This document shows positions 1,248-59,856 of a stretch of 64,000 bases of DNA, in pieces. The notes under the pieces were generated by a model. It made no database searches, had not been told where the DNA came from, and saw only the letters and a program-made list of their open reading frames with translations. This stretch comes from Pomacea canaliculata. Lineage: Eukaryota; Mollusca; Gastropoda; Architaenioglossa; Ampullariidae. The DNA lies in contig NC_037595.1 of the NCBI RefSeq assembly GCF_003073045.1, positions 11,586,074 through 11,650,073 on the forward strand, in the 5' to 3' direction. The translations under genes were made by a program, and so were the position numbers. Within the stretch, counting starts at the first letter, position 1. Each line of letters starts with the position of its first letter.

Positions 1248-2543
1248 TTACAGGGAGCCGCAGTCTTGACAGCCGCAGCATCTCTTGCGGCGGACCAGCG
1301 GCATGCTGCGCGTCAGGGTCACGGCACGGCGCATCCTCATCGTCGTCTTGCAGCAGCGCACGACACAAAGACACCTGTCGGTAGGACTTTGGGGTTCAGG
1401 CTCAAGCACTGAACCTGGAAGGGAGAAAGGAGGGTAGAATGTGTAGGGGGGTGAAGAGTGGGCCAGGGGAAGGGATGGTTATTGTCGGTGGCAAGCTTCA
1501 GCTCACGTAGGACTGCAACAAATGTCAGTTTGGGGCATCATTTCTGCCACTTCTGTGCATGTACGCGTGCGTGCTTGTGTGTCTGTGCATGCGAGAGGAC
1601 GAACAAAGGAGACAACATTGTAGAGTTTCAGAACATAAAAGAAATCAAGCTTAGAAGTCGCTATTATGGAGTTGGTGATGGTCATGGCGTTTGCTAATGT
1701 CGTTCTCTATGACATTTAAGGGAATGTAAAAATAGCCTTCATCTGCCAAAAGAATATAAGTAAGCCAATAATATTGAAACCAGTGTAAAGACACACACGG
1801 AGACAAACAGGAGTCAGTCCTCACCTGGCTGAGTTTGTAACTCAGGTTGGACAGTAAACGAGGACGTCACCGAGGCCAGGATGATCACCAACAGCAGCTG
1901 GAACAACCTGCAGAATAAACGATTAAGTTATGGATGCTGGTGAGCTCTTACCTAAATCAAAACTATTATTATGATAATGGACTACATCGCGGTTTTCATC
2001 AGCTTTGATAACAGTGGTACTGATTATGGTAGTGTATCACTGTTTTGGGCACCTTTCGTCTATACTCCCCTCCTTACCCCCCGGCCTCACTACTTCTCCG
2101 TTCATCTTAATCTTCTAACATCAGCCTTCTTTGAGTCCCGTTAACTAAGACAAAAAACTGTGGAACAGATTTTTTGTTTTCTACTAGGCCTCCATCAAAT
2201 TTCAACAAACTATTTCAACAGCTTCCGTCATTTATACTCTTAATCTTTTAATACAAATTTATGAGTTACTTCTTTTCAAATCAGAGACTTCACCTTTCCA
2301 CATCAGGACTGTTTATATGTGTGTGTGATAGAGACTAGGTTCAAGAATATTTTTTGTAAATATTTTTGAAAATATGCATCAGTAAGCGGATAGAACTGTG
2401 GGAAATGGATACAGATGGGGATCTGAGGCGTGAACGGAAGAGTTTGCTGCTTGTGGTGGACAATATTAAAATGTTTTAATATCACTTTTATCAAAAAATT
2501 AATTTTGAAACAAAATAAGACCAAAATACCTTTTTGCGTACAT
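1248..2543 (-). CDS. Secreted cysteine-rich peptide, gene A of tandem array
   Basis: The exons, read on the minus strand, are 2543..2530, 1907..1825 and 1414..1248, with GT-AG introns and phases 2 and 1. They encode 87 residues. Residues 1-20 (MYAKRLFQLLLVIILASVTS) form a signal peptide, followed by an acidic, Pro/Gln-rich linker. The mature domain has Cys47, 49, 53, 54, 78, 79, 81 and 84, in the pattern C-x-C-x3-CC-x23-CC-x-C-x2-C. The 23-residue spacer contains RRAVTL, MPLVR and RKR just before the second CC, so it carries two basic cleavage-type sites. A paired polybasic arrangement between two cysteine clusters suggests either a knotted single chain or a processed two-chain hormone; neither is shown. 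I do not recognise the family. Genes B and C are paralogues. The start is fixed by the exon 1 pattern M-x-[AT]-K shared with B, C and D, and by a TATA box about 110 bases upstream. Confidence 0.82.
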
Positions 2544-2639
2544 GTTAGGTAAAGAGAGCGATACCTAACGACAAGTCGTTGTCCGAGCTTCACACACGTG
2601 ACTGAACTTTCTCGCAGACGCTCTCTGAGTCGGTATTAT

Positions 2640-3000
2640 CGTCTGTCACCTTTATATCCTCCTCCTAACTTCTCATCGTCACAAGCAGTTCCCTCTTGGC
2701 TACTTATACCTTATCAGTCGGCCGGTGACGTCAGCTAACCTCCAAACATCCGGTAAACTGTCGACAAGGGGGCCGACGCAGAAAACTGGTTTTCAGGTCC
2801 GCTTTGTTGACATGCACAACAACAGACAGTTGACACAACTTTCGTGTTCTGCGGAAGTTTTCCTTGTTGTAGGGTCAGATCACCGGAACAATAAACAAAG
2901 AGCTGTCCTACAGAGAGGAATAAAAAGCTTTGTGTCCTGGAATCAGGAGGTTGAGGTGCCCTTGCTGACCTTTTGCGACAGGAGCGCAACCTCCCTCTTC
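2640..3000. repeat. Duplicated promoter and upstream block (copy 1)
   Basis: This block aligns by eye with 6380..6740 in the same order and orientation. Shared tracts include CCAAACATCCGGTAAACT, AACTGGTTTTCAG, CCGCTTTGTTGACAT, AGCTTTGTGTCCTGG and TTGAGGTGCCCTTG. It is the upstream part of the tandem duplication that produced genes A and B. It is not protein coding on either strand as far as I can tell. Confidence 0.75.
2651..2733 (-). promoter_or_regulatory. Promoter of gene A: TATA box and CRE
   Basis: Read on the minus strand, a perfect TGACGTCA (2726..2733) lies about 70 bases upstream of AGGATATAAAGG (about 2650..2661). The gene A start codon is at 2543. The same arrangement and most of the surrounding sequence recur at gene B. 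TGACGTCA is the consensus for CREB/ATF-type bZIP factors, so cAMP or activity-dependent control is a reasonable inference. Confidence 0.65.
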
Positions 3001-3734
3001 CCCGCAGGTACAACAGGGTGTGACAGATATGATTGTGTCGTCAGTGATGCATGTGAGCGACTTCTGAAACCTGGTGTGAGTGTGAGGTCGGCTTTGACTG
3101 AAGCCCGAGTGTTTGGGCTTAACTTCCTAAAATCATGGTTGGATTGTGTTCATCTGAGGTCTCGAAGATGAAGTCAACTTCCATAATCAGGTCAAACTAT
3201 TTCTTTTGCCACTGGAGGCTAGTGACTGATTTTCATTGAGATGCACACCAGTCCACGTTCACTTATTTAAGACTTTCAGCTAAGGAAGGGGAAAGGGTCA
3301 GGGTGAACAAGGAAGGGAAGAACATCAGACGGGGTTGGGGCGAGGTAAGGAAGGGAAAAAAAAAGAAAGAAAAAAAGAGACAGACTCCAAAATAAAATGT
3401 CGCTAGCTTATTTACTCTCTCCTATTATCGAGTCTATTTTAATGGACTAGTGGCTTACTGCATTAAGTTAAAGATTTAAATATTCGACTTAAGTTTGAGA
3501 GAAATTCCTTTACTCTATGTTCTTTATCTGTTACCACACTCGAATGCCTCGTACTCTAGAGAAATACGTCTTGAAATTATTTTCTAAAAAAAAAAAAAAA
3601 AACTAAAAAAGAAAAGTTTCGTTGACACGTACTCTGTTCATCCTTGCCTCAATTTTAGTATTTATCTACTGTGTATATTTTTTGGTCTTGCGAGACAGCA
3701 GTTTGTGCGATTGATCGAAGTCATTAAAAACTTC
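3001..3734. other. Intergenic, A to B
   Basis: AT-rich sequence with homopurine and poly-A tracts around 3350..3375 and 3585..3610. No gene or element is recognised. Confidence 0.4.
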
Positions 3735-3764
3735 CATGTGAGCCAGATGACTGTGACTCAATTG

Positions 3765-3900
3765 TCGCATTTATTTTGTCACAATAAACTGTGTCACAGT
3801 GTCACACAATTATTTTCATATTGTGTCAGTGTCACACACAGTGGCTACTTTATGTCACTCGCTCTCGGTCACAGTGTCACATGAAAAGGTCACGATCACC
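3765..3900. repeat. Cluster of GTCAC motifs
   Basis: Eight copies of GTCAC, mostly as GTGTCACA, occur within about 130 bases with irregular spacing. The following segment (GGGCTGGGTTACTATGTCAAG, near 3911) has a relative at about 5468 (GGGCTAGGTTACAGTGTCAAG). The cluster therefore seems to belong to the intergenic part of the tandem duplication. Confidence 0.5.
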
Positions 3901-4529
3901 CTGATACGAGGGCTGGGTTACTATGTCAAGAGGACTTTTCTGACAAGGGCAACAAGTCTGTCATCAAGACACTTTACTTTATTAGAAAGAGGAAATGGCT
4001 ACTCTGTTATATTTATCAAGCTAAAGTACATGACATAACCATTTCCTCTTTTCTAAAGAATACACGAAGAACTTGATTTTTCTTTTTAATCTTATTTTGT
4101 GGCTGAGTATGGCTGCCTCAGGGGCATGAGAATTTCACCCGTTCGTGAGCTGATATTAAAGTTCACATTTTGTCGTAAGATCAGGGCAGTGACTTTTGGT
4201 CGTTATTTTTAAAATCGCTTCTTAAGATTAAAGTAAATGTAAAACATAGCCTTGTTATTTTTTTCAGTGTCTAGCAGACAAGAGACAGATGAGAAATACT
4301 AAAAACAAGAAAGGCTAAAGGGAAACCACCCAGTGAAGCATCAAAGTAGCAGGAGTTACGCTCCATTTTCATAACTTTTTTTACTCGAGAATTGCTTTGC
4401 AGAAAAAATGAATTCATGAACACATGAGCAAATGAGAAGCAGAAAAAAGAAATTAGAGAGAAAAAATATGTTAACGAAACTGGAGTAAAGGTGTGACAGT
4501 GAGATTAATTAAACTAATTAACATAAGAT

Positions 4530-4665
4530 GGTGTAAAGGATTTATCCAGTATCTGATACACATTAATATGATATAAATCTTAAGCTTTGTGGGTCGGGGA
4601 TGAGGTGATGAAACACATGTAGCAGCAAACAATTTGTTTGCCATCATCTTTCTCGCGAACACTCC
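4530..4665. repeat. Duplicated intergenic block (copy 1)
   Basis: This block resembles 6808..6930. Both carry a CAGTATCTGATACACAT-like tract, then ATATAAAT-TTAAGCT, GTGG-TTGGGG-GAGGTG, a CAGCAAA tract and TTGTCGTGAAC-like sequence. It marks a second homologous stretch between the A-B and B-C intergenic regions. The intervening 4666..5004 is unremarkable AT-rich DNA. Confidence 0.55.
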
Positions 4666-5005
4666 GTCCTACATTTTGCTGATCTTAGAAAAAAATTATT
4701 CCATTCTTAGCTAAGATGGCGGAGGGTTTTCTGTGACCCTGACTTGCTACTTTAAGTTCATCGACAAACGTGATTATCCAAGTGAATTAAACCAAAATAC
4801 TTTTTTTCAGTTTGTGGAGTTCAAATTCAGCTGAGTGAACATACAACTAAGTATATGATAACAGCAGTTGCGAAATAAAAACGAATAGGTTAGAGGCTTG
4901 GGGTAAAAAAAATATCTCTCTGTTTCTATCTCACTCTCTCCATCAATAAGATGATAAAGAATATACTATAAGCCACACATGCTAAAAATAGCATCATTGT
5001 TCAAT

Positions 5006-5011
5006 TTTATT
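5006..5011 (-). terminator. Polyadenylation signal of gene B
   Basis: Minus-strand AATAAA lies about 90 bases after the stop codon. The surrounding TTCAATTTTATT-CCATG is conserved at the 3' end of gene C (7398..7403). Confidence 0.55.
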
Positions 5012-5098
5012 GCCATGAACAGGTTAGTTATCTGTGGAATTTCTGCCCACAGGTAATGTGACATTCATAAGTTTTTAACCAGAAGCGCAGCAGCCTGA

Positions 5099-5390
5099 TT
5101 ATTTCAAGCAGTTGGTACATCCGCAGCATCGCTTGTGTCGCACCATGGGCATGTTGAGTGCAAGGGTCACTGCCCTGCGTTTCTCCCGTATCTCCTGGCA
5201 ACAGCGAATTTCGCAGGTACATATCATTGGCTCGGGGGTGGTAGGGGCAGTATCCATACTCAAGTCTGCAACACATGACAGTTTCGATAGTCATTTCCAG
5301 GACTCATTAACACGTTCGAGAGAGTATTTAAAGTGGTTAAGCAGGAAACCTGCGCATTACAAATCATCATCATCGTCGTCGTCGTCGTCG

Positions 5391-5438
<48 letters not shown>

Positions 5439-6317
5439 ACTAAAACATCAGTATTTTTTGGTCACGTGGGCTAGGTTACAGTGTCAAGCGAAAAAAAGAT
5501 GACGATGTCCTTGGTTCAAGACTTGCTAAAGTAAAGTATTACTGTAATCTGCTCGTCTTGCTAAGTGACAAAAACGACTCCTTCCCCAACAAAATAAAAC
5601 ACAAGAAGTGGTTCATGCGGACCAGTCAACTGTGTATGTCACGTGTCGCTTGCTGCAGTGTGGGGACGATATGCTTCGCTGCTCGCACCGTGACAGTCTG
5701 CTTGTGTGACTGTGAGCGTGCCTGTGAGAGCAAGTCTCGCTACACCCGATCGCGTTACGCGACAGTGAAGAGAACACAGTAAAAATAAATCACATCGAAA
5801 GCTTGTAGCTTACAATTGAAAACAAATTAAAACGTTGTAGTCGTTGGTGCCATCGTAGACATCGTGGTGGTGTGGTGGTGTGGTGGTGGTGGTGGTGGTG
5901 GTGGTGGTGGTGGTGGTGGTGGTGGTGGTGGTGGTCGGTGGTATTGCAGTTTACATATGTTAGTTTGGCAAAGACTGCATAAAACCCTTCGTAACCTAAA
6001 CATTTACATCTATTATTTCCGGGAAGACTTTACATAAAGCTTTATGAAAGAGTTGGCTCTCACCTGGCGGAGGCGTGACACTCTGCGAAGCTGCTGCCGT
6101 GATCAGGGTTGTCAGCAGGGTCAGGTAAATAAAGCTGTTGATTACAGAAAAAAAAAGTCAGGAAGCGATTATTTTGGCCACAACAAGAAAGTTCTAGTTT
6201 TGACTATCACCAGTGTACTGATGATTACACGGACAATATTAAAATGTTCTTATGTCATTTTTCTCAAGAAAAAGCACTTTTGAAACAAAATAAGACAAAA
6301 TACCTTTTTGCGTGCAT
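5099..6317 (-). CDS. Secreted cysteine-rich peptide, gene B of tandem array
   Basis: The minus-strand exons are 6317..6304, 6134..6064 and 5265..5099, with intron phases 2 and 1 and all junctions GT-AG. They encode 83 residues. Residues 1-21 (core AKSFIYLTLLTTLITAAAS) form a signal peptide. A short linker rich in Thr and Pro follows. The mature domain has Cys44, 46, 50, 51, 75, 76, 78 and 81, the same framework as gene A, and the last exon has exactly the same length (167 nt). The spacer contains EKRRAVTL, NMPMVR and HKR before CCGCTNCLK. The coding exons are closest to gene C, while the promoter is closest to gene A. Intron 2 carries two trinucleotide microsatellites. Function is unknown; a secreted bioactive peptide (hormone, venom-like or defence) is the general class. 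Confidence 0.85.
5364..5440. repeat. (TCA/TCG)n microsatellite in intron 2 of gene B
   Basis: About 25 trinucleotide units, with a CGT-type core inside a CAT-type run. It generates a meaningless serine run in one frame. Confidence 0.95.
5863..5940. repeat. (GGT)n microsatellite in intron 2 of gene B
   Basis: A long GGT run, slightly interrupted at its left end, lies inside intron 2 of gene B. Confidence 0.95.
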
Positions 6318-6379
6318 CTTAACTGAAAGAGCTAACGACAGATCGTTGTCCGAGCTTCACACACTTGTCTCTGTGGCGG

Positions 6380-6740
6380 TATTATCACCTGTCACTTTTA
6401 TATCCACCTACTAACCTCTCATTCGTCAGAAGCAGTTTCCCCCTTGGCTACTTGTACCTTGTAAGTCGGCCGGTGACGTCAGCAGTCTACCCTCCAAACA
6501 TCCGGTAAACTATCGACTAAAGGAGGCCGACGTAGGTTGGGCAGATGGAGAAAACTGGTTTTCAGATCCGCTTTGTTGACATCCTGGAGAGATCACACCA
6601 GTTGACACCATTTTCGTGCCTATTTACCTTGTGGTAGGCCTAGATCACCCAATAAACGAAGAGCTGCCTACACGAGAAGAATTAGAAGCTTTGTGTCCTG
6701 GGATGAGGCGCTTGAGGTGCCCTTGTTGACCTTTGCAAAC
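6380..6740. repeat. Duplicated promoter and upstream block (copy 2)
   Basis: Partner of 2640..3000, with small insertions and deletions (for example an extra stretch near 6525..6545). Confidence 0.75.
6395..6481 (-). promoter_or_regulatory. Promoter of gene B: TATA box and CRE
   Basis: The minus-strand TGACGTCA (6474..6481) lies about 70 bases upstream of GGATATAAAAG (6395..6405). The gene B start codon is at 6317. Sequence and spacing match gene A. Conservation of this block between paralogues supports shared transcriptional control, though recent duplication alone could also explain it. Confidence 0.65.
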
Positions 6741-6807
6741 CCGGAGTTTGGTCTGTAGAAGATATCAGTTCCATGGCGGTACTCCAGGCTTCAGGTCTAA
6801 GAAATTT

Positions 6808-6930
6808 AAAACTCAGTATCTAATACACATAAACGTGACATAAATTTTAAGCTGAGTGGATTGGGGCCGAGGTGTTGACAAACACTCGTGACAGCAAAAA
6901 TTGTATTTACAATGTTTGTCGTGAACCTCC
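6808..6930. repeat. Duplicated intergenic block (copy 2)
   Basis: Partner of 4530..4665. The remaining sequence to 7397 is AT-rich with no recognised gene. Confidence 0.55.
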
Positions 6931-7397
6931 TGTCAAGCACTTTGCAGGTCCATAAAAGAATTTTTGTAGATTATCTTATCTGAAACGACCTACGGTCACG
7001 ACCTACATAAAGGTCATCGACAAACTTGATTGTCTCAGTGAACTCCCCCCGTCTCCTAAAAATATAAATACTGTATATATTGTTTAGTTTGGGAGTTCAA
7101 ATGCCAGCTGCGTGAACACGTCACTAAATATATGGCACACAACCTAGTCTTGTTGATATGTGACTAAAATGAACTGAAAATTAATGGTTGACTGGCCAAC
7201 ATAGAATGCAGTGGTCAAAATATCTTCTATCACTCTGTCCATTAAAAACCTAGATCAAAATAATAATTTCAGATTTTCCTTTCTAACCTCAACAAGACAA
7301 ACAAATAACATCTGTGCGTGACACCCCCTTCATCTCTCTCTCTCTTCATGACTAACATGATCAAGATAAAACAATAAATAGCACATCCTAGTTCAAT

Positions 7398-7403
7398 TTT
7401 ATT
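7398..7403 (-). terminator. Polyadenylation signal of gene C
   Basis: Minus-strand AATAAA lies about 85 bases after the gene C stop, in a context shared with gene B. Confidence 0.5.
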
Positions 7404-7486
7404 CCCATGGTCGCATCTGTGAAATTTATGCGCCTCCAACCGTGACATTTGTACATTTTTAGCCACATGTGAAGTAGTTTTATTAT

Positions 7487-8316
7487 TTAGGACACGACGG
7501 TGAGAGCTGAGAGAGCCAGCTGCTGTGACAGCAAACAGTCCTGACAGCCGCAGCAGCGCTTGTGACGCACCATGGGCATGCTGAGTGCAAGGGTCACGGC
7601 CCTGCGCTTCTGCGATGTCGCCTGGCAACAGCGAATTTCGCAGGTACAGTACCTGTCGCCGAGGGGCCAGGTAGAGGGCAGGACTATCTCACCTTTTAGC
7701 AGTTCAAGCAGGTCTGCAACACATGACAGTCTCGATGGACATAGCCAGGACTCGCTAGCACGACCACAAATGTTTGTGTGTATGTAAGAGAGTGAGAGAG
7801 AGAGAGAAAGAGAGAAAGTTGAGGACATAAGAAGACAACAGAAGTGACACAAGCAGACCAGTCGATAGTGTAGAGTAAACAGTGAAAAATAATTCACCTC
7901 CACAACCTGTAGTTTACAATGGAAAACAAATTAAAATGTTGTAGTCCTAGGTAGCCATTGTGTAGTGTTATTGGTGTTGCTATCGTCCATCACATATATC
8001 AGGTTGGGGAAGACTTTGTATAAAATTCTTCCAGCTTTGTGGAAGAGTCGGTTCTCACCTGGATGAAGCTGGACACTCTGCGAAGCTGCCGTGATCACAG
8101 TTGTCAGCAGGGCCAGGTAAATAAAGCTGGCGATGAGAGAAAAAAAGATGAGGGAGTGATTAATTTGGCCACAACAAGAAATTCCAAGTGACGAGAAAGA
8201 CTACTTTCCATTGTTGATATCATCAACTTCTTCAGCCGATATACTAATAACTGTTTTAGCATCATGTTGCCGAAATAAATATTCAGAGGGAGGACAGCTT
8301 ACCTTTTTGTATCCAT
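7487..8316 (-). CDS. Secreted cysteine-rich peptide, gene C of tandem array
   Basis: The minus-strand exons are 8316..8303, 8126..8059 and 7713..7487, with phases 2 and 1 and GT-AG junctions. They encode 102 residues. The signal peptide core is KSFIYLALLTTVITAAS. The linker is longer than in A and B and contains LLELLKGEIVLPSTWPLGDR. Cys50, 52, 56, 57, 81, 82, 84 and 87 keep the framework and the exact 23-residue spacer, with QKRRAVTL, SMPMVR and HKR. After the last cysteine the protein runs on for 15 mostly hydrophobic residues (LLSQQLALSALTVVS), a tail absent from A and B. Exons 2 and 3 are closest to gene B. The differing linkers alongside a fixed cysteine domain suggest that the domain is under constraint. 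Confidence 0.84.
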
Positions 8317-14040: not shown

Positions 14041-17000
14041 ATGTCTGATACCAAATCAGAAACGTCGGATGAGCGAGATAAAAATTTCAACTCATTAAAC
14101 ATGGGACAAAACTCTGCAGCCGAACCTAGGATTCAGCAGCCAGGAGAGGTTATCGCCCCTGAAGTATCTCAATCGGATGTTACGAAAGCTGCAGAGGAGG
14201 TATACATTCATTTCTATGCTCTTTTTGTGCTTTGCGGAAATTTGGTAAAACGCTCTGCCAGAGAAGATTTATTAACACATCCAACTAAAAATCGAATGAT
14301 TAAAATGGCAAAACACTGGCTGATGAAAGCCGCATCTTCAATTTCACTCAACTCCTCATCCCTCCTAATTGTTTTCTTAGTTAGTAATATACTTACTTAT
14401 TTTTGATTTACTTAGCTTTATTGCTTGGTTTTAGTAAATTTTAGTTCACAATCATTTTTTTTTAAATTTTATAATCACTGTCAACAAATAATTGTGTTTT
14501 GTTGTTAGGAGGTGGGGATGGAGGCGCGATAATGAGTCAACCCTTCGAAAAGTCCTCGTGCACATTATTTTCGAAAAAGATTTTAGTATTCTGTAATTTT
14601 GGGACCTGTCGCATGGCTTGCTGTGCTTGTTATGCAGATTTACGGCCTGCAGATCATCAGCTGTCGTCAGCTGAACGGCTACGACGATAAGAACTATCAC
14701 CTCGTGACTTCCGGTGTCACCTCCAACCCACACCTGAGTGCGCCTGCACCCGAGGGCTATGTGCTCAAGATCATCAACTCCATGGACACTCAACGACCAG
14801 AGATTCTTTGTAAGCTGGGACAAGGGGTGAGAATGAGGAGGCTGGATCCGGCCATCTCTTGGGTGGAATGTGAGGCCGGAATTTTAGGTTTGATTTAGGA
14901 TTAGTCTGGGATTTCTTTAGAAACTGATTGTGGGTTGAAGAGGTATGCTGGTTACTCGAACAAAGATAAGAAAATTTTCTCGGCAACCTGGCAATTCTCA
15001 CTGGCTCTGTTCTCACTAATACATCGATGGTTATAATAATGCATGTCTTTGGTTAGTTGCAGTAATAGATTTAACAATTGGTTGTAACAGTTTGATTGTA
15101 GAAATACATCGAGTAGTTTGCTTGTAGTTTAATTGGAAGTTGGATGTTGGTAACGTTGCCATCCATTCATTCTGTCTATTCCTGCAAAGACAGAATGATA
15201 TATCTTACAAGAATTCTCTTGTTTCCAGATGCCCAGGTCGCCTTCATGAAGCATCTCAGTGCGCGTGGCATCGGTGTACAGGAGCCGCTACCTGATAAAA
15301 ATGGCGACCCGGTGGCTTTCTACACCTTCCCATCCCCGGACGGGAAAGGTAAAGTGGAAGATGGCTGATGTAGGCAAGCACCAAACAATCAAGTTTATTT
15401 TCCATCTTATCAGGATCGACCCTGCTGTCGATTCCGTAATTGTTGTAGCGAATTTAAACTTGTATTCATTTTTGTTTTTACCTGAGCTGGCAGGTAGGAC
15501 TGTATACGACTGACATTCGTAAGATGTCGCGACACAGGTCAAGCACTTTCATACGATTTAAAAACAGTCTTGTCATGCACGTGGAAAGTTGATATGAAAG
15601 GTTTTATATGTAAATCAACACGCAAGGCGACTTTCAAAATGACTTTTCGTCTAGGGAAAACGCCTTACAAACGATTACAGATTTTTTCCAAGACTACGAC
15701 TTCGCTGACATAATTGCCTATTTGAATTTTGATGATAGTGGTTTATTTGACTTGCTTGATTACAGACATTTACCGTGCATTCAACACAGACTCTCCGTTA
15801 GAAACAATCTTGTTAAAATACAAATTAATAAACAACAGTTAAATAAAGGAGAACCGGAGGCTTCACTAAGTAATCGATGTGACAAACGATAAATTGAACG
15901 ACTGCCGATAACGTTGCCTTTTGACCTTTCTCAGGCGAGGGCCGAAGGCACGCAGTGTGTTTGCGATCCTTCATGCCAGGGAAGATTCTGGCTGACGTCA
16001 CGCTGACCCCTGACCTTTGCTACCAAGTGGGTCAGTTCCTGGGCAAGATGAGCGCAGCTCTGCAGTATGTTATCTTTATTTTCTGTCCTCCAAGCGTTAC
16101 CTTGAAGACAAATCAGATTTGTGACGTAACGCTGGTGAGAGGGTGGGAAACAGTCCGCTCGGGTGGCGCTGACATGTCTGCTCCTTTCTTTTGCGGACTG
16201 GTTCGCTTTTCCTGTCTTCCTTCGAGAATGTCCTTCCTGCAAGTGTAAGACATTGGAAGCAAAACGCTTATGGTGTAATTTTTGTTGTATTAATCTGTTT
16301 GAGATTTAGTTAATGAGCTGAAGTTGTCTATGTCAGTGCTGGTAGAATTTCAACAAAGTAGTTGTCTAGGGTCATGGTTTGGCTCCTTCCTGCAGGATTT
16401 TGATCATCGTTTCTACGACATCTTTGACTGTCTGTGGAGCATGAACAACATCTCGAAGCTGGGTGAGTTCACCGCACGCTGTCGCGGACCCACAGGATCG
16501 ACGCCTGGTGGAGGAGGTCATTGCAGAGTTCAGTCGATGTGTGCTGCCAAGCGAGGAGAAATAAGACAAGGTAACACCTGGCTGACAACTGAAGGAACCG
16601 ACAGACGAGAATAAGGGTTGGGATTGGGGAGGAGAGAGTTCTGGGAAAAACGAGATTATACGATCAAAGCCATTTTCTCCATCAAAAAATGCTAATCAGT
16701 TACAACATCATCTGCTGATGATGTCAAGACTGAACAGCCACATAGTGCTCGTTCATTTATTTATTTATTTACAGGTTTCGTGCACGGGGATCCCAACGAA
16801 CAGAACATCCTCGTCATCGTCAAAGATCGTGACTCCCAGCTTCCGCCGTCTGTCGATCACACAGAATACGTCATTTCCGGCATTTTAGACTATCAGGACG
16901 TAGCCCGCACCCACCCTCTGTACGACCTGGCCATGTGCATCGCTTATGTCATGCTCACGGCCACGACCTTCGACCCCTTGGAGGTCGGAGGTCACATACT

Positions 17001-17237
17001 AGCCGGGTACACGTCGCAGCTGGCGTTGCCGGCCCTGGAGAGGGCGCTGCTGAAGACGACGGTGGCCAGCAGGTTGGCGCAGTCGCTGGTGCTGGGCGCC
17101 TACACTCACAGCCTCGACCCACCAACCACTACGTCCTCACAACGGCGGCGCGCGGATGGCCCGTTCTGCGTTCGCTGTGGGCCGCGCCTACACCGGAAGC
17201 TAGACTCGAGATGGTCTACAATCGAAGCTTCGTATGA
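14041..17237 (+). CDS. HYKK: Hydroxylysine kinase (aminoglycoside phosphotransferase fold); frame irregular
   Basis: HYKK phosphorylates 5-hydroxylysine with GTP in lysine and collagen breakdown. Exons: 14041..14199, 14638..14809, 15229..15348, about 15935..16064, 16396..16570 and 16775..17237. Visible blocks are GYDDKNYHLV and EGYVLKIINS (nucleotide-binding lobe), RSFMPGKILADVTL, the catalytic loop HGDPNEQNIL, and ILDYQDVARTHPLYDLA at the metal-binding position, then VGGHILAGY and AQSLVLGAYTHS. Order and length fit the family (about 375 residues). Four places break the expected frame: the exon 4 donor lacks one base (CAGTATGT at about 16063); there is one extra base near 16474..16479; one base is missing near 16557..16560, restoring frame; and one base is missing near 17119..17121, after which TNHYVLTTAARGW continues in another frame to a stop at 17237. 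Without the last shift the frame would end at 17244. Either this is a decaying copy or the assembly has local base errors. Confidence 0.85.
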
Positions 17238-17244
17238 CAGATGA

Positions 17245-31786: not shown

Positions 31787-34700
31787 ATGGGTCAACGTCT
31801 GGCCAGACGAGAGCGCGAGAGAGGAGCGAGGCTGTACCACCAGCAGCGGGCGGAGGAGGCTGTGGAGAAGTGGAACCATTCCTTGACGAGGCTCCGCGAC
31901 CCTCGCGACAAATTTACGGTAAGAAACCATACAGAAAACTCCCGAGTCTAAACTCATACATGTCTCAGTTCGCTGGCAAAGTTACCGGAGAAGTGGGATG
32001 CGAAATTTGTAATAATAAATAACGAGGATAGAGATGCTTAAGAGGCTTGTATCTTGCAAACATGAAGGATTCTGATTTTTTTAGAATTAGCATGTAATTA
32101 TAATAATGAATCAAACCTATACAAATAATTTTTCACGCTACAAATCCATTAAATTAGAGATTTAAAATATAAAACAGCTTTATTTTAGCACTTTCCTAGA
32201 GTACAATAGTCATCTGTAACCTCCAAGTAAAAAAGTTTGATGATGATCTATGCTGTTATGTAAGGCAGTTTCAATATCAAACTATCGCTAACGGATCAAT
32301 GATAGGACTTTTTCTAAGTGTATCCCTCGAAATTTCAGTTACATGTGAGGCGTTACAAAGCTACATAAATGTTTGATATTAATATAAAATTTGAGGTTTA
32401 ATTTGAAGTATATAGATGAACCCCAGCACAATTATTATTTGGGGAGGAAGGGGGATTTATCTACAGTATGGGGTACCATCGTACGGATCCACTCAGTACA
32501 AGGCACAGGTGACACAAAATCCAATCAAATTACTGAAAAAAATAGAAAAGACAAAATATTACACAAAATCCCGAATATTACGGACAAAATTGCGGTTGTG
32601 TTTATTTATATACAAGCTGATGTTTACAAGTATATTCGCTGCATTATTTATTAATGTCCATTTTCATATAACAAATCACGTAGATGATTTTGACACTATA
32701 TATATAAAAATAGCTCCGAGTGGGCAAAAATTGTGGTTAGACATGAGCTTCATTCTCGTCTTCAATTGGTTCCACAGACTACGCCCTATGGCTGTAACTT
32801 TGAGGGTATACCAAAAAAAAAAATTGTAATGTTTGGGGTATACAGGTAAACTTCCTTTTTCTGCAGGTAAATGGTGATCTTTGTCGAGCACTGTGTGAAC
32901 TAGGCAAGTTTCGCGAAGCACTGGAGCACGCCGGCCAGCAGTGCGGACTGGCAGCCGACATCGAAGACCCGGCGATGACCGCCGAGGCCTACCTCAACAT
33001 GGCGGTGTGCAACCTGCGGTCCTGCGAGTTCTCCAAGGCAGTGTCGTACTGCAGGTCTGCCATGCAGGCTCAGCCAGAAGGAAACCCACTTTTAGGGTCA
33101 GTGTTTGCACCCTGGATATGTCTCGAGATGTTGGTCCCTGACCCTACCCAATAATTTTTGGGCATTAAAGTGACAGACGATTTCATGCCTGACATATTGT
33201 GCAATGGCTGCAAGTTAACTCGTCCTATTCATCTTTCTGTCTCAGGTCCTTGCACCTGTGTCTTGGCGACGCTTTCTTGGGTCTCAGCGAGTTCCAGAAG
33301 GCGTGGAACAACTACTCGCGCGCGCAGGCCCTTGCGCAAAGCACGTCGGACCGGGTGCTAGCCATGCACGTCCAGGCCAGCATGTCGGCCGTGTACACCG
33401 CCCTCAACGACCACGACTCGGCCATCAGCTGCTGCACGACGGCCCAACAGCTCGCCGACGAGGTCAGCAGGGCGCGGCCATCACCGGAAGTCGCAGGGGC
33501 CGTGGCGCGCTTCCGCCGTCGCCTGGCAACGGTCATCGCGCATCCTTACCGCAAGATCGGCCGGTACAACGAGGCCATGGACTATTGCGAGGTGAGATGG
33601 AAAAATATTCTAAGCTGTATAACTGGTATGTGTATGTATGTGTGTATATATATATTTGAAAGTGTTTTCCTTTTCGACCCATTTATTTATTTCGAAAACA
33701 CACACACGGGGCTAAAAGGAAAACAATTTGACTTTTTTTTTTCTTACCCAAGATTTACTCCTGCCGGTAGGAAGGCATTTGTTTAGACTCCATTACTTTT
33801 TTCTTTGGCATACCAGCTTCAGAAAACGGAAGAGCTGGTTTATAAAAATCAAGATTGCTGTGTGAGTAGTGGGCCTTTGCTTCTGTACTGTACGACCTGC
33901 CGACCGTTAACACCGTTGCGCACGTTTCTGGATGTTCTTGTGGTCAACGGCGTTGGTCGGGATTATCTGATAATCGACATAATTAATAATAAAATGTATT
34001 GATCTCAAATAATGATTGGTGCTGTTAAGAAATATATTTGATTTGAATCTTTTTTAATTAATTTTTAAATTTTCAAATGTATGAGAGATAAACTTATTGG
34101 GGCGTGAATTGTGGAGTGCACATCTCCGCTTTCACGGCCACTGACAGCAAAGGGGTTAAAAGCGCGATACTTTTGGCATGAGTCATTCCCGTCACCCTGC
34201 GCGATGACTTTCAGATGTCGGAATTTCGCCACGGTTATCCCTTCCTCCCTTCTTTCCATGCATATCTTGCAAAGTGAGGAACGCAGCACACTGAACGAGA
34301 CTATTTAAGTCTTTGAGACTTATTACTTACAAGTTAATTTTCCTTTTGATAATTGCCCGAAGAGAAATATTTTCAAGAAATCGGTTAACTGAATGACCTA
34401 TTTGATCTTCGCGCCCTTTGATCGCTGAATTATTGGCTAAGAGGGAAAAAGCCATTAAGAGACCGTGCTTAGAGGAAAGCACTTACTGGAACTCATAAAA
34501 AAACGACAGGCCACCCGAGGATCGTAAATCCTTTTGCTGATGCAAGCTGAGGTGTTGCTTGAAGACTGCGACCAACGGCCTCGTCGACTTCATTGCGCAT
34601 GTCGCCATTGAAATTGCGGTGGCTTCCTTGGCAACATCTTTGCCGGAGGAAAGGGTCCAACTGGAACTGTTTTTCAATGGAAAACTATACATAAACTTCT

Positions 34701-57835: not shown

Positions 57836-59856
57836 CCGAGTGCCGTCTCTGCGAGAGGTAGGAATCCCTGGAGGGTAGACACCCCACGGACTCACTTCAT
57901 CGAGACTGTGTTACCCAGTGCTCAACCACAGGGTGTCGTGGTGTCACCTGCTGTGCGAGTGCATGCCTTCCACTTCCTGAAGACAGATGGTAGGAATCTT
58001 AGTCTTTAGCTCTGTGTTTGTGAGTGTGTGTGTTTGTGTTTGTGTGTTTATTTGTACGTGCTTGTGTGTGTGTGTGTGTGTGTGTTGCTGAAATCTGACA
58101 CTGACATGTATTTACATTTTACATCTCAACTTCATCTTCGACGCCTTTCCATTTACACCTGAACTGTAACACAAATATTGTCTAACACTTCACTTTACAG
58201 ACAAAAGGAGTCACTTAATCCATTTACACTTTACCTCTGAACTGTAAGATGTCCATATACAGCAGTCTATAAAAAATGTTGGCCTGTGCATGTCTGTTTG
58301 TACACGACCAGGTTATCGCTCAAAACGTCACGCCTTGTCGTCTCATGACGTAAGAAACCTGATCCCCTCGGTGAACGATCTCCCTTCGATCCTGTCCTCA
58401 ACTCGCCAGGCTAACCTTTCCAAGGCCTTGAACTTTCAACCTGTTGTTCGTGCGCAGCGTGCATGACGTTCTGCAGGACAGCTGACGCTGCTCGGTCCTC
58501 GATCCGGTCCGGTGACCGCTCGTCATGCCCTCGCGCGGAGACACCCAGCTACAGCTCCTCCCGCGTGCAGCGGGCCTCTCGCCTCAACTCTATTGAGCAG
58601 GCGCGCCTGCAGCACCAGCTGCACCTGCTGGAGAAGGCCTACGTGCACCAGGCTCGGCTCACCAATCAAGACATCCGCCTCACCTCCCTGGCTCTCGAGT
58701 ACATTCAGGTGAGCAGTCCTCCTACGCGCGTGTATCTGTATTATGTGTGCGCGCGTGTGTGTGAATGAGTAATGAAGTCAATTAAATACAAAAATATGAC
58801 AATGTTCGTCACCTTCTTCAGCTGTTAGCCACTGTCTCTTGCTCCTGACGATGATGAAAACTTGACCAGTTCTCTTGCACAGGCGTGCAGTGGACACAGT
58901 CCGGAAGGTCGGGGACCTGTAAGTCCGCAAGGAGGTGAAGACACGACCCAGCAGGAAGACCCTTGCTTCTTGTACGGAGAGCGAGTAATGAGTCGCAAGG
59001 TGCGCCGCATGGCTCGTCCCCAGTCCGCCGTCGACAGGCCCATTGACCGCCGCAACCAGTCATCTGACATCTCCTCCAGCGCCTCGGTCGACGACAGTGC
59101 CGGCGTGCGAGTCAGTCTTCCTCCGCGTCCGCAAAGTAGCCCCGCCAAGGGGCGTGCGTGGGCCTGGTCGAGCGGCGAGGAGACTACGGACGGCAGCATC
59201 GGGTCAGAGGTCGACCTCGATCGGCCTCAGAGTCGCGCCTCTACGTCAGGTGCCAGCAGGCCCCCAACGCCGGGTAGAGGACGGCACTATTTTCACTGAC
59301 TCCCACCCCTGGGAGAGTCACTCCGCACCAAGCTTGGGAGGACGACACAGACGATGTGACCCGCAAACTGCTGAAGGCCCAGAAACAACAACAGCAACAA
59401 GAAGCTCAGGGACAGTTTCTACACTCGAGAGACTCTCGACGTATGCGGTTTCAGACATTTGGGAATATTTCCCGTAATCGGCTCTCGCACTTGCCATCGT
59501 CTTTGACATCTCCAGTCTCGTCTGGCCGACAAGGAAGCATCACACTGCCACCCGACACGCCCTCGGGACCTACGATGGAAGATCGGAAACCAGTCTCTCC
59601 AAAAGAGAGGCGTGCCCGGTCCGGAAGCGCAGTTCTGGGAAGAAAAGCTGGTGTGGCGGACATCATGAACCAGCCACGGGGGACCTTGTCTGCAGCGGCC
59701 TGGCGACGGCATCTCGCCAATACCCAAACTGCCTCGAGGTCTTCCGAATCCCAGAACCAGATCCTCATGGAGGCACGCAAAGGGAGGGAGAAGGAAAAGC
59801 AAGACCTCATGCAGCAGAAAGTGGAATCTTTCATTGGCCAAATTAACTTATGGTGA
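57836..59856 (+). CDS. Unrecognised Ser/Arg-rich protein with central helical segment
   Basis: Exons 57836..57989, 58458..58708, 58883..59273 and 59351..59856 join in phase with GT-AG borders and read 433 residues to TGA. The first exon may be 5' UTR, in which case the start is ATG at 58463 (MTFCRTADAARSS); otherwise upstream exons are missing. The segment SIEQARLQHQLHLLEKAYVH then QARLTNQDIRLTSLALEYIQ is a strong helix or coiled coil. A disordered Ser/Arg/Pro stretch follows (PQSAVDRPIDRRNQSSDISS), then the Gln run KAQKQQQQQEAQGQ, and finally a conserved-looking C-terminus with SAAAWRRHLANTQTASRSS and QKVESFIGQINLW. A helical start plus disordered basic body is reminiscent of CCDC190-type proteins, but that is a weak impression. 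The 77-bp last intron avoids a stop and could alternatively reflect a frameshift. Confidence 0.68.

Follow-up and report, generated by a model that had tools for sequence, protein, structure and literature searches.

Conotoxins of framework XI (I1, I2, I3) carry the cysteine order C-C-CC-CC-C-C according to a passage of PMC4278219 (PubMed Central), and conotoxin superfamilies are described there as sharing a signal peptide with a variable mature part. The same portion of that source presents the conodipine precursor as two chains parted by a propeptide. The PXRX proneuropeptides of conchiferans have four cysteines and a P[FM]R[WY] motif, as stated in one part of PMC6425005. Here we describe a gene family in a 64,000-nucleotide window of the Pomacea canaliculata genome (contig NC_037595.1, positions 11,586,074 to 11,650,073), in which three genes on the minus strand, named A, B and C, follow one another head to tail, each encoding an eight-cysteine domain. 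Related proteins are found in other gastropods. Our leading reading, held tentatively and derived from the sequences, is that this gastropod family is a convertase-processed, secreted, cysteine-rich peptide, possibly of two disulfide-linked chains, whose role would more probably be in endogenous signalling than in venom.

The eight-cysteine domain of genes A, B and C

All three genes share one three-exon plan, with GT-AG borders at six of six introns and intron phases of 2 and then 1 in each gene. The locus (1248–8316) runs exactly from the stop codon of A to the ATG of C. The products are 87 (A), 83 (B) and 102 (C) amino acids long and contain eight cysteines apiece; each begins with a hydrophobic N-terminus, followed by a linker and the cysteine domain. 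The N-terminal signal peptides are predicted from hydropathy only. The pattern C-x-C-x3-CC-x23-CC-x-C-x2-C is matched by all three products. A similar pattern with a gap of 10–45 residues between the CC pairs recovers the three domains and nothing else in the real window, and a relaxed version (gap 10–40) gives 0 matches in 200 shuffled windows, in which the bases were permuted inside 200-base blocks. The first-pass annotation, which had proposed tandem genes with signal peptide, linker and eight-cysteine domain, is borne out by these three intact models. No fourth copy is found in the 64 kb with a profile built from B, C and five relatives, the best match outside the A–C exons having an E value of 0.36.

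The 5′ end of exon 3 needs care in gene A. An acceptor is also present where exon 3 of B and C begins (exon start 1512), but in this window it does not lead into the reading frame of the domain, which the acceptor at 1414 does. A protein fragment from the database search, P0001, reads openly through the disputed stretch in the domain frame. Either the downstream acceptor is used in gene A, or its linker has changed frame relative to P0001, in the genome or through the assembly.

The aligned DNA of B and C has an identity of 0.88 for exon 2 and 0.86 for the domain, against 0.55 for the linker part of exon 3. Outside the coding sequence the values are 0.63 for intron 1, 0.73 for intron 2 (where 342 of 798 positions align), 0.69 for the 3′ flank and 0.47 for the upstream region. 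The B–C blastn match in exon 3 (B 5117–5221) begins at the first Cys codon, as placed by the gene model. Free variation had earlier been claimed for signal, linker and C-terminal tail; between B and C it does not apply to the signals, given the close match of exon 2. In the domain, the proportion of synonymous differences (pS) lies above that of nonsynonymous differences (pN) in every pair, as expected from the first-pass annotation, with pS/pN of 0.59/0.27 for A–B (Fisher p 0.004) and 0.58/0.20 for A–C (p 0.0009). The synonymous divergence (dS) of pairs with gene A is about 1.1 (NG86), close to saturation. Purifying selection on the domain is supported, with significance in two of the three pairs.

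Relatives in other gastropods

A profile search over about 5.8 billion proteins, made with a word-based method that requires shared exact words, matched six proteins. These are two from Littorina saxatilis (V1264_015995 and V1264_015997, whose locus numbers differ by two), one each from Nucella lapillus, Babylonia areolata and Haliotis rubra, and the fragment P0001. The five named relatives are annotated as hypothetical or uncharacterized predictions. As no other form of the family was found in the protein database, it can now be given a name and sought in existing transcriptomes. Three of the named species belong to Caenogastropoda, and Haliotis to Vetigastropoda. A further search with seven sequences, in which the 7994 candidates sharing most words were scored, gave five matches, all within the earlier six. 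With the Haliotis domain as query, the single candidate was the Haliotis domain itself. The proposed confinement to gastropods agrees with all five named relatives; a search that depends on exact shared words falls short of proving it.

Our comparisons over eight sequences comprise A, B, C and the five named relatives; P0001, a fragment without signal, was judged by eye. A hydrophobic N-terminus is observed by hydropathy in all eight. Each sequence has eight cysteines in total except that of Haliotis, which has two extra near the N-terminus. C-x-C-x3-CC, a basic pair, R-x-[KR]-R and CC-G-C-x2-C are found jointly in every one of the eight, and P0001 also has the cysteines and basic sites by eye. 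The gap between the CC pairs is 23 residues in both Littorina sequences, 30 in Nucella, 26 in Haliotis and 32 in Babylonia. The 23-residue gap, formerly taken as constant, is so only within A–C and Littorina, and the same spacing, expected of relatives, fails in three of the five. Of the 55 residues in the modelled exon 3 of gene A, P0001 departs at 2 (counted by eye), whereas the part aligned to the gene A intron is much less alike and gapped, as expected if the exon is constrained.

Basic sites and the variable spacer

A strongly conserved R-[HR]-K-R motif (RHKR or RRKR) stands directly before the second CC in all eight sequences, and P0001 reads RRRR here (by eye). A basic pair follows the first cluster in all eight and, by eye, in P0001; it ends 8 residues past the cluster, or 10 in Haliotis. 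Between these sites lies a spacer of 11, 12, 18 or 20 residues. Mean pairwise identity among the eight sequences is 0.87 for the first cluster (0.73 minus Cys), 0.94 for R-x-K-R, 0.77 for the second cluster (0.45 minus Cys) and 0.34 for the spacer, the last value depending on our own rule for the spacer boundary around the basic pair. The first cluster reads CTCE[IV]RCC in seven of the eight. The R-x-K-R motif agrees with the furin-type consensus. In conotoxin precursors, cleavage directly before Cys-Cys occurs, and mature peptides often begin after a basic site. A variable spacer between conserved basic sites is what would be expected of a precursor from which the spacer is excised by a cut at each end. 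These sites at the two ends of the gap, absent from the earlier account, change what the mature product is likely to be.

Searches against known families

A Pfam scan of all eight full-length sequences gives no family match beyond chance level, and a sequence search of the PDB likewise gives none beyond chance. An NCBIfam scan of five sequences (P0002, P0004, P0005, P0006 and B) gives no match above chance either, which says little as this library is built for prokaryotes. For the insulin family in Pfam, no match is found in the eight proteins at E values up to 10, although most matches weaker than about 0.1 are removed by the filters of HMMER. Weak hits to ataxin-7-like protein 3 (E 0.23 and 0.039), formylmethanofuran dehydrogenase (E 0.12 and 1.5), TagV (E 0.04), Taq exonuclease (E 0.35) and DUF2496 (E 0.24) are taken as chance. 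In the open-licence PMC literature, no paper is found that contains its motif strings or locus names, and no title or abstract start found by topic describes the eight-cysteine family. The framework had been called undescribed; its family and spacing are indeed unmatched in curated libraries, but the cysteine order is that of conotoxin type XI as given in the passage of PMC4278219.

Proposed processing and alternative explanations

In the reading that we prefer, the family would be made as precursors, here from three tandem copies, and the signal peptide would be removed. Disulfides would bridge the two clusters, C-x-C-x3-CC and CC-x-C-x2-C. Since the peptide is probably secreted, disulfides are likelier than metal binding by C-x-C and CC. 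A proprotein convertase would cut at R-x-[KR]-R and perhaps also at the upstream basic pair. The variable spacer would then be released and two disulfide-linked chains would result, arranged as in insulin though not homologous to it. The product would act outside the cell, most likely as an endogenous signal. Its presence in Haliotis (Vetigastropoda) and a domain better kept than the linker argue for a non-venom role. A more specific form of this proposal, which we put forward with rather low confidence, is a hormone-like family in which the convertase would yield two four-cysteine, disulfide-linked chains. Their insulin-like layout would have been reached independently, they would have a receptor of their own, and the family would be at least as old as the common ancestor of Vetigastropoda and Caenogastropoda.

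Several points weigh against convertase processing into a signal peptide. The AlphaFold confidence (pLDDT, predicted local distance difference test) is 55.5 for P0002 and 45.5 for gene C exon 3, too low for a fold search. The sample is small, and five of the eight sequences are paralogs within two species. The closest pair, B–C, alone does not reach significance (pS/pN 0.27/0.11, Fisher p 0.10). The second cluster is weakly conserved beyond Cys, Gly and the basic site, the spacer identity depends on our boundary rule, and the basic residues may be there to bind membranes or polyanions and not for cleavage. The spacer itself could be a functional loop: it is 11 residues long in A–C and both Littorina sequences, starts with AV, SV or SI in all eight and ends with P-x-[VI] in seven. 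This last point would suit an uncut, single-chain folded secreted peptide with RHKR as a surface loop or binding motif. We give such a peptide a modest chance, as the spacer ranges from 11 to 20 residues and is poorly conserved while R-x-K-R is the best conserved part and has the furin-type form. The basic residues would find another use if the product were a cationic, cysteine-rich antimicrobial peptide from epithelium or haemocytes that binds microbes through them. The net charge of the domain (K/R minus D/E) is +4 to +9 in all eight sequences, the products are small and probably secreted, and the genes are tandemly duplicated; this defence role has a modest chance in our view. No Pfam defence-peptide family is matched, however, the first cluster is near-invariant, and the domain shows purifying rather than diversifying selection, a weak objection as many defence peptides are conserved too.

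Haliotis is a grazer without venom and Littorina is not venomous, and members of the family in both make a venom or salivary toxin of the conotoxin kind, with framework XI, very improbable. The gap of 23–32 residues between the CC pairs also speaks against a toxin. The gastropod relatives and the frequent start of mature conotoxins after a basic site would fit one. So would the cysteine order, which is that of type XI in the passage of PMC4278219; set against this, the kept domain and varying linker are the reverse of the conotoxins as characterised there, though the signals of B and C are also alike. No more credible is a structural cysteine-rich protein of shell matrix, egg capsule or mucus. 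Such a protein would agree with named matches in gastropods only, with probable secretion and with the cysteine content. Yet the sequences are short and show no internal repeats by eye, the residues between the first-cluster cysteines are strongly conserved, and the candidate convertase site would have no obvious use. Taken together, we would rank a convertase-cut endogenous signal first, a defence peptide or an uncut single chain after it, and venom and structural roles low.

Should the two-chain reading be true, the family would be a candidate orphan ligand and would show another way in which snails build secreted peptides of two disulfide-linked chains. In any case, the family is common to abalone, periwinkles and whelks and lies outside the curated libraries searched.

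Flanking sequences and neighbouring features

The coordinates of the three genes and their flanking signals are collected in Table 1. A GATATAAA box is found upstream of each ATG. Counting both strands, the 64 kb contains five copies of it, three of them just before the three ATGs; the remaining two copies are at 4570 (+) and 43723 (-).

Table 1. Features of genes A, B and C, in positions of the window
Feature	Position	Strand	Basis or remark
Gene A exon 1 (ATG, 14 bases, ends phase 2)	2530..2543	-	gene model
Gene A exon 2 (hydrophobic signal-peptide core)	1825..1907	-	gene model, hydropathy
Gene A exon 3 (linker end, domain, stop; 5′ end uncertain)	1248..1414	-	gene model
Gene A domain CLCVVRCC..RRKRCCGCQDC	1260..1373	-	pattern match; coordinates derived from gene model
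Gene A RRKR codons, candidate convertase site (residues 74-77)	1281..1292	-	coordinates derived from gene model
GATATAAA of gene A	2658		TATAAA starts 113 bases before ATG
Poly(A)-like signal, gene A	1207		ATTAAA
Gene B exon 1	6304..6317	-	gene model
Gene B exon 2 (signal-peptide core)	6064..6134	-	gene model; DNA 88% identical to C exon 2
Gene B exon 3 (linker, domain, stop)	5099..5265	-	gene model
Gene B domain CTCEIRCC..RHKRCCGCTNC	5108..5221	-	pattern match
Gene B RHKR codons, candidate convertase site (residues 71-74)	5129..5140	-	coordinates derived from gene model
GATATAAA of gene B	6404		TATAAA starts 85 bases before ATG
Poly(A)-like signal, gene B	5011		AATAAA
Gene C exon 1	8303..8316	-	gene model
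Gene C exon 2 (signal-peptide core)	8059..8126	-	gene model
Gene C exon 3 (linker, domain, tail, stop)	7487..7713	-	gene model
Gene C domain CTCEIRCC..RHKRCCGCQDC	7535..7648	-	pattern match; coordinates derived from gene model
Gene C RHKR codons, candidate convertase site (residues 77-80)	7556..7567	-	coordinates derived from gene model
GATATAAA of gene C	8407		TATAAA starts 89 bases before ATG
Poly(A)-like signals, gene C	7484 and 7403		AATAAA

From the promoter through exon 1 into the beginning of intron 1 (2458–2973 and 6231–6734), genes A and B are 77% identical over 545 aligned positions. This likeness contrasts with the A–B domains, which are near saturation at synonymous sites, and no comparable match is found in the 600 bases upstream of gene C. 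Gene conversion or cis-regulatory constraint is a possible cause. Simple triplet repeats are observed in intron 2 of gene B at about 5365–5435 and 5862–5937 (ATG/ACG and CCA type on the minus strand), and they explain part of the difference in intron 2 length between B (798 bases) and C (345 bases).

Elsewhere in the window, an exon-like open reading frame (ORF) at 16696–17241 (+) matches the Pfam APH phosphotransferase family (E 1.4e-5); we take it to resemble hydroxylysine kinase. Two exon-like ORFs at 32804–33783 (+) perhaps belong to a rapsyn gene, the first with Rapsyn_N and TPR matches and the second with TPR. Three long overlapping or neighbouring ORFs at 58415–59853 (+), with no Pfam match at E 0.001, are perhaps exons of one further gene.

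Comparison with known systems

The likeness to insulin-related peptides would lie in layout only, two cysteine-bearing ends around a variable segment flanked by basic sites. The eight cysteines of the snail domain sit elsewhere than those of insulin, and the Pfam insulin family is not matched. I-type conotoxins have a few residues between their CC pairs, and the snail family differs from them by its 23–32 residues.

With conotoxin framework XI the family shares the C-C-CC-CC-C-C order given in the passage of PMC4278219, a secreted precursor and a gastropod origin. In conotoxins as outlined there, the signal is conserved and the mature peptide is variable; in the snail family the domain is kept and the linker varies, a contrast drawn with the superfamilies as generally described. 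The conodipines of the same passage resemble the proposed product in having a two-chain precursor with a propeptide, but they are phospholipase A2-type enzymes and, compared through Pfam alone, show no match. Inspection of the eight sequences by eye does not show the P[FM]R[WY] motif of the PXRX proneuropeptides. The PXRX peptides, as portrayed in that part of PMC6425005, are likewise secreted by molluscs and have conserved cysteines together with a Pro/Arg motif, and the snail family stands apart from them with eight cysteines and mostly P-x-[VI]-R-[HR]-K-R.

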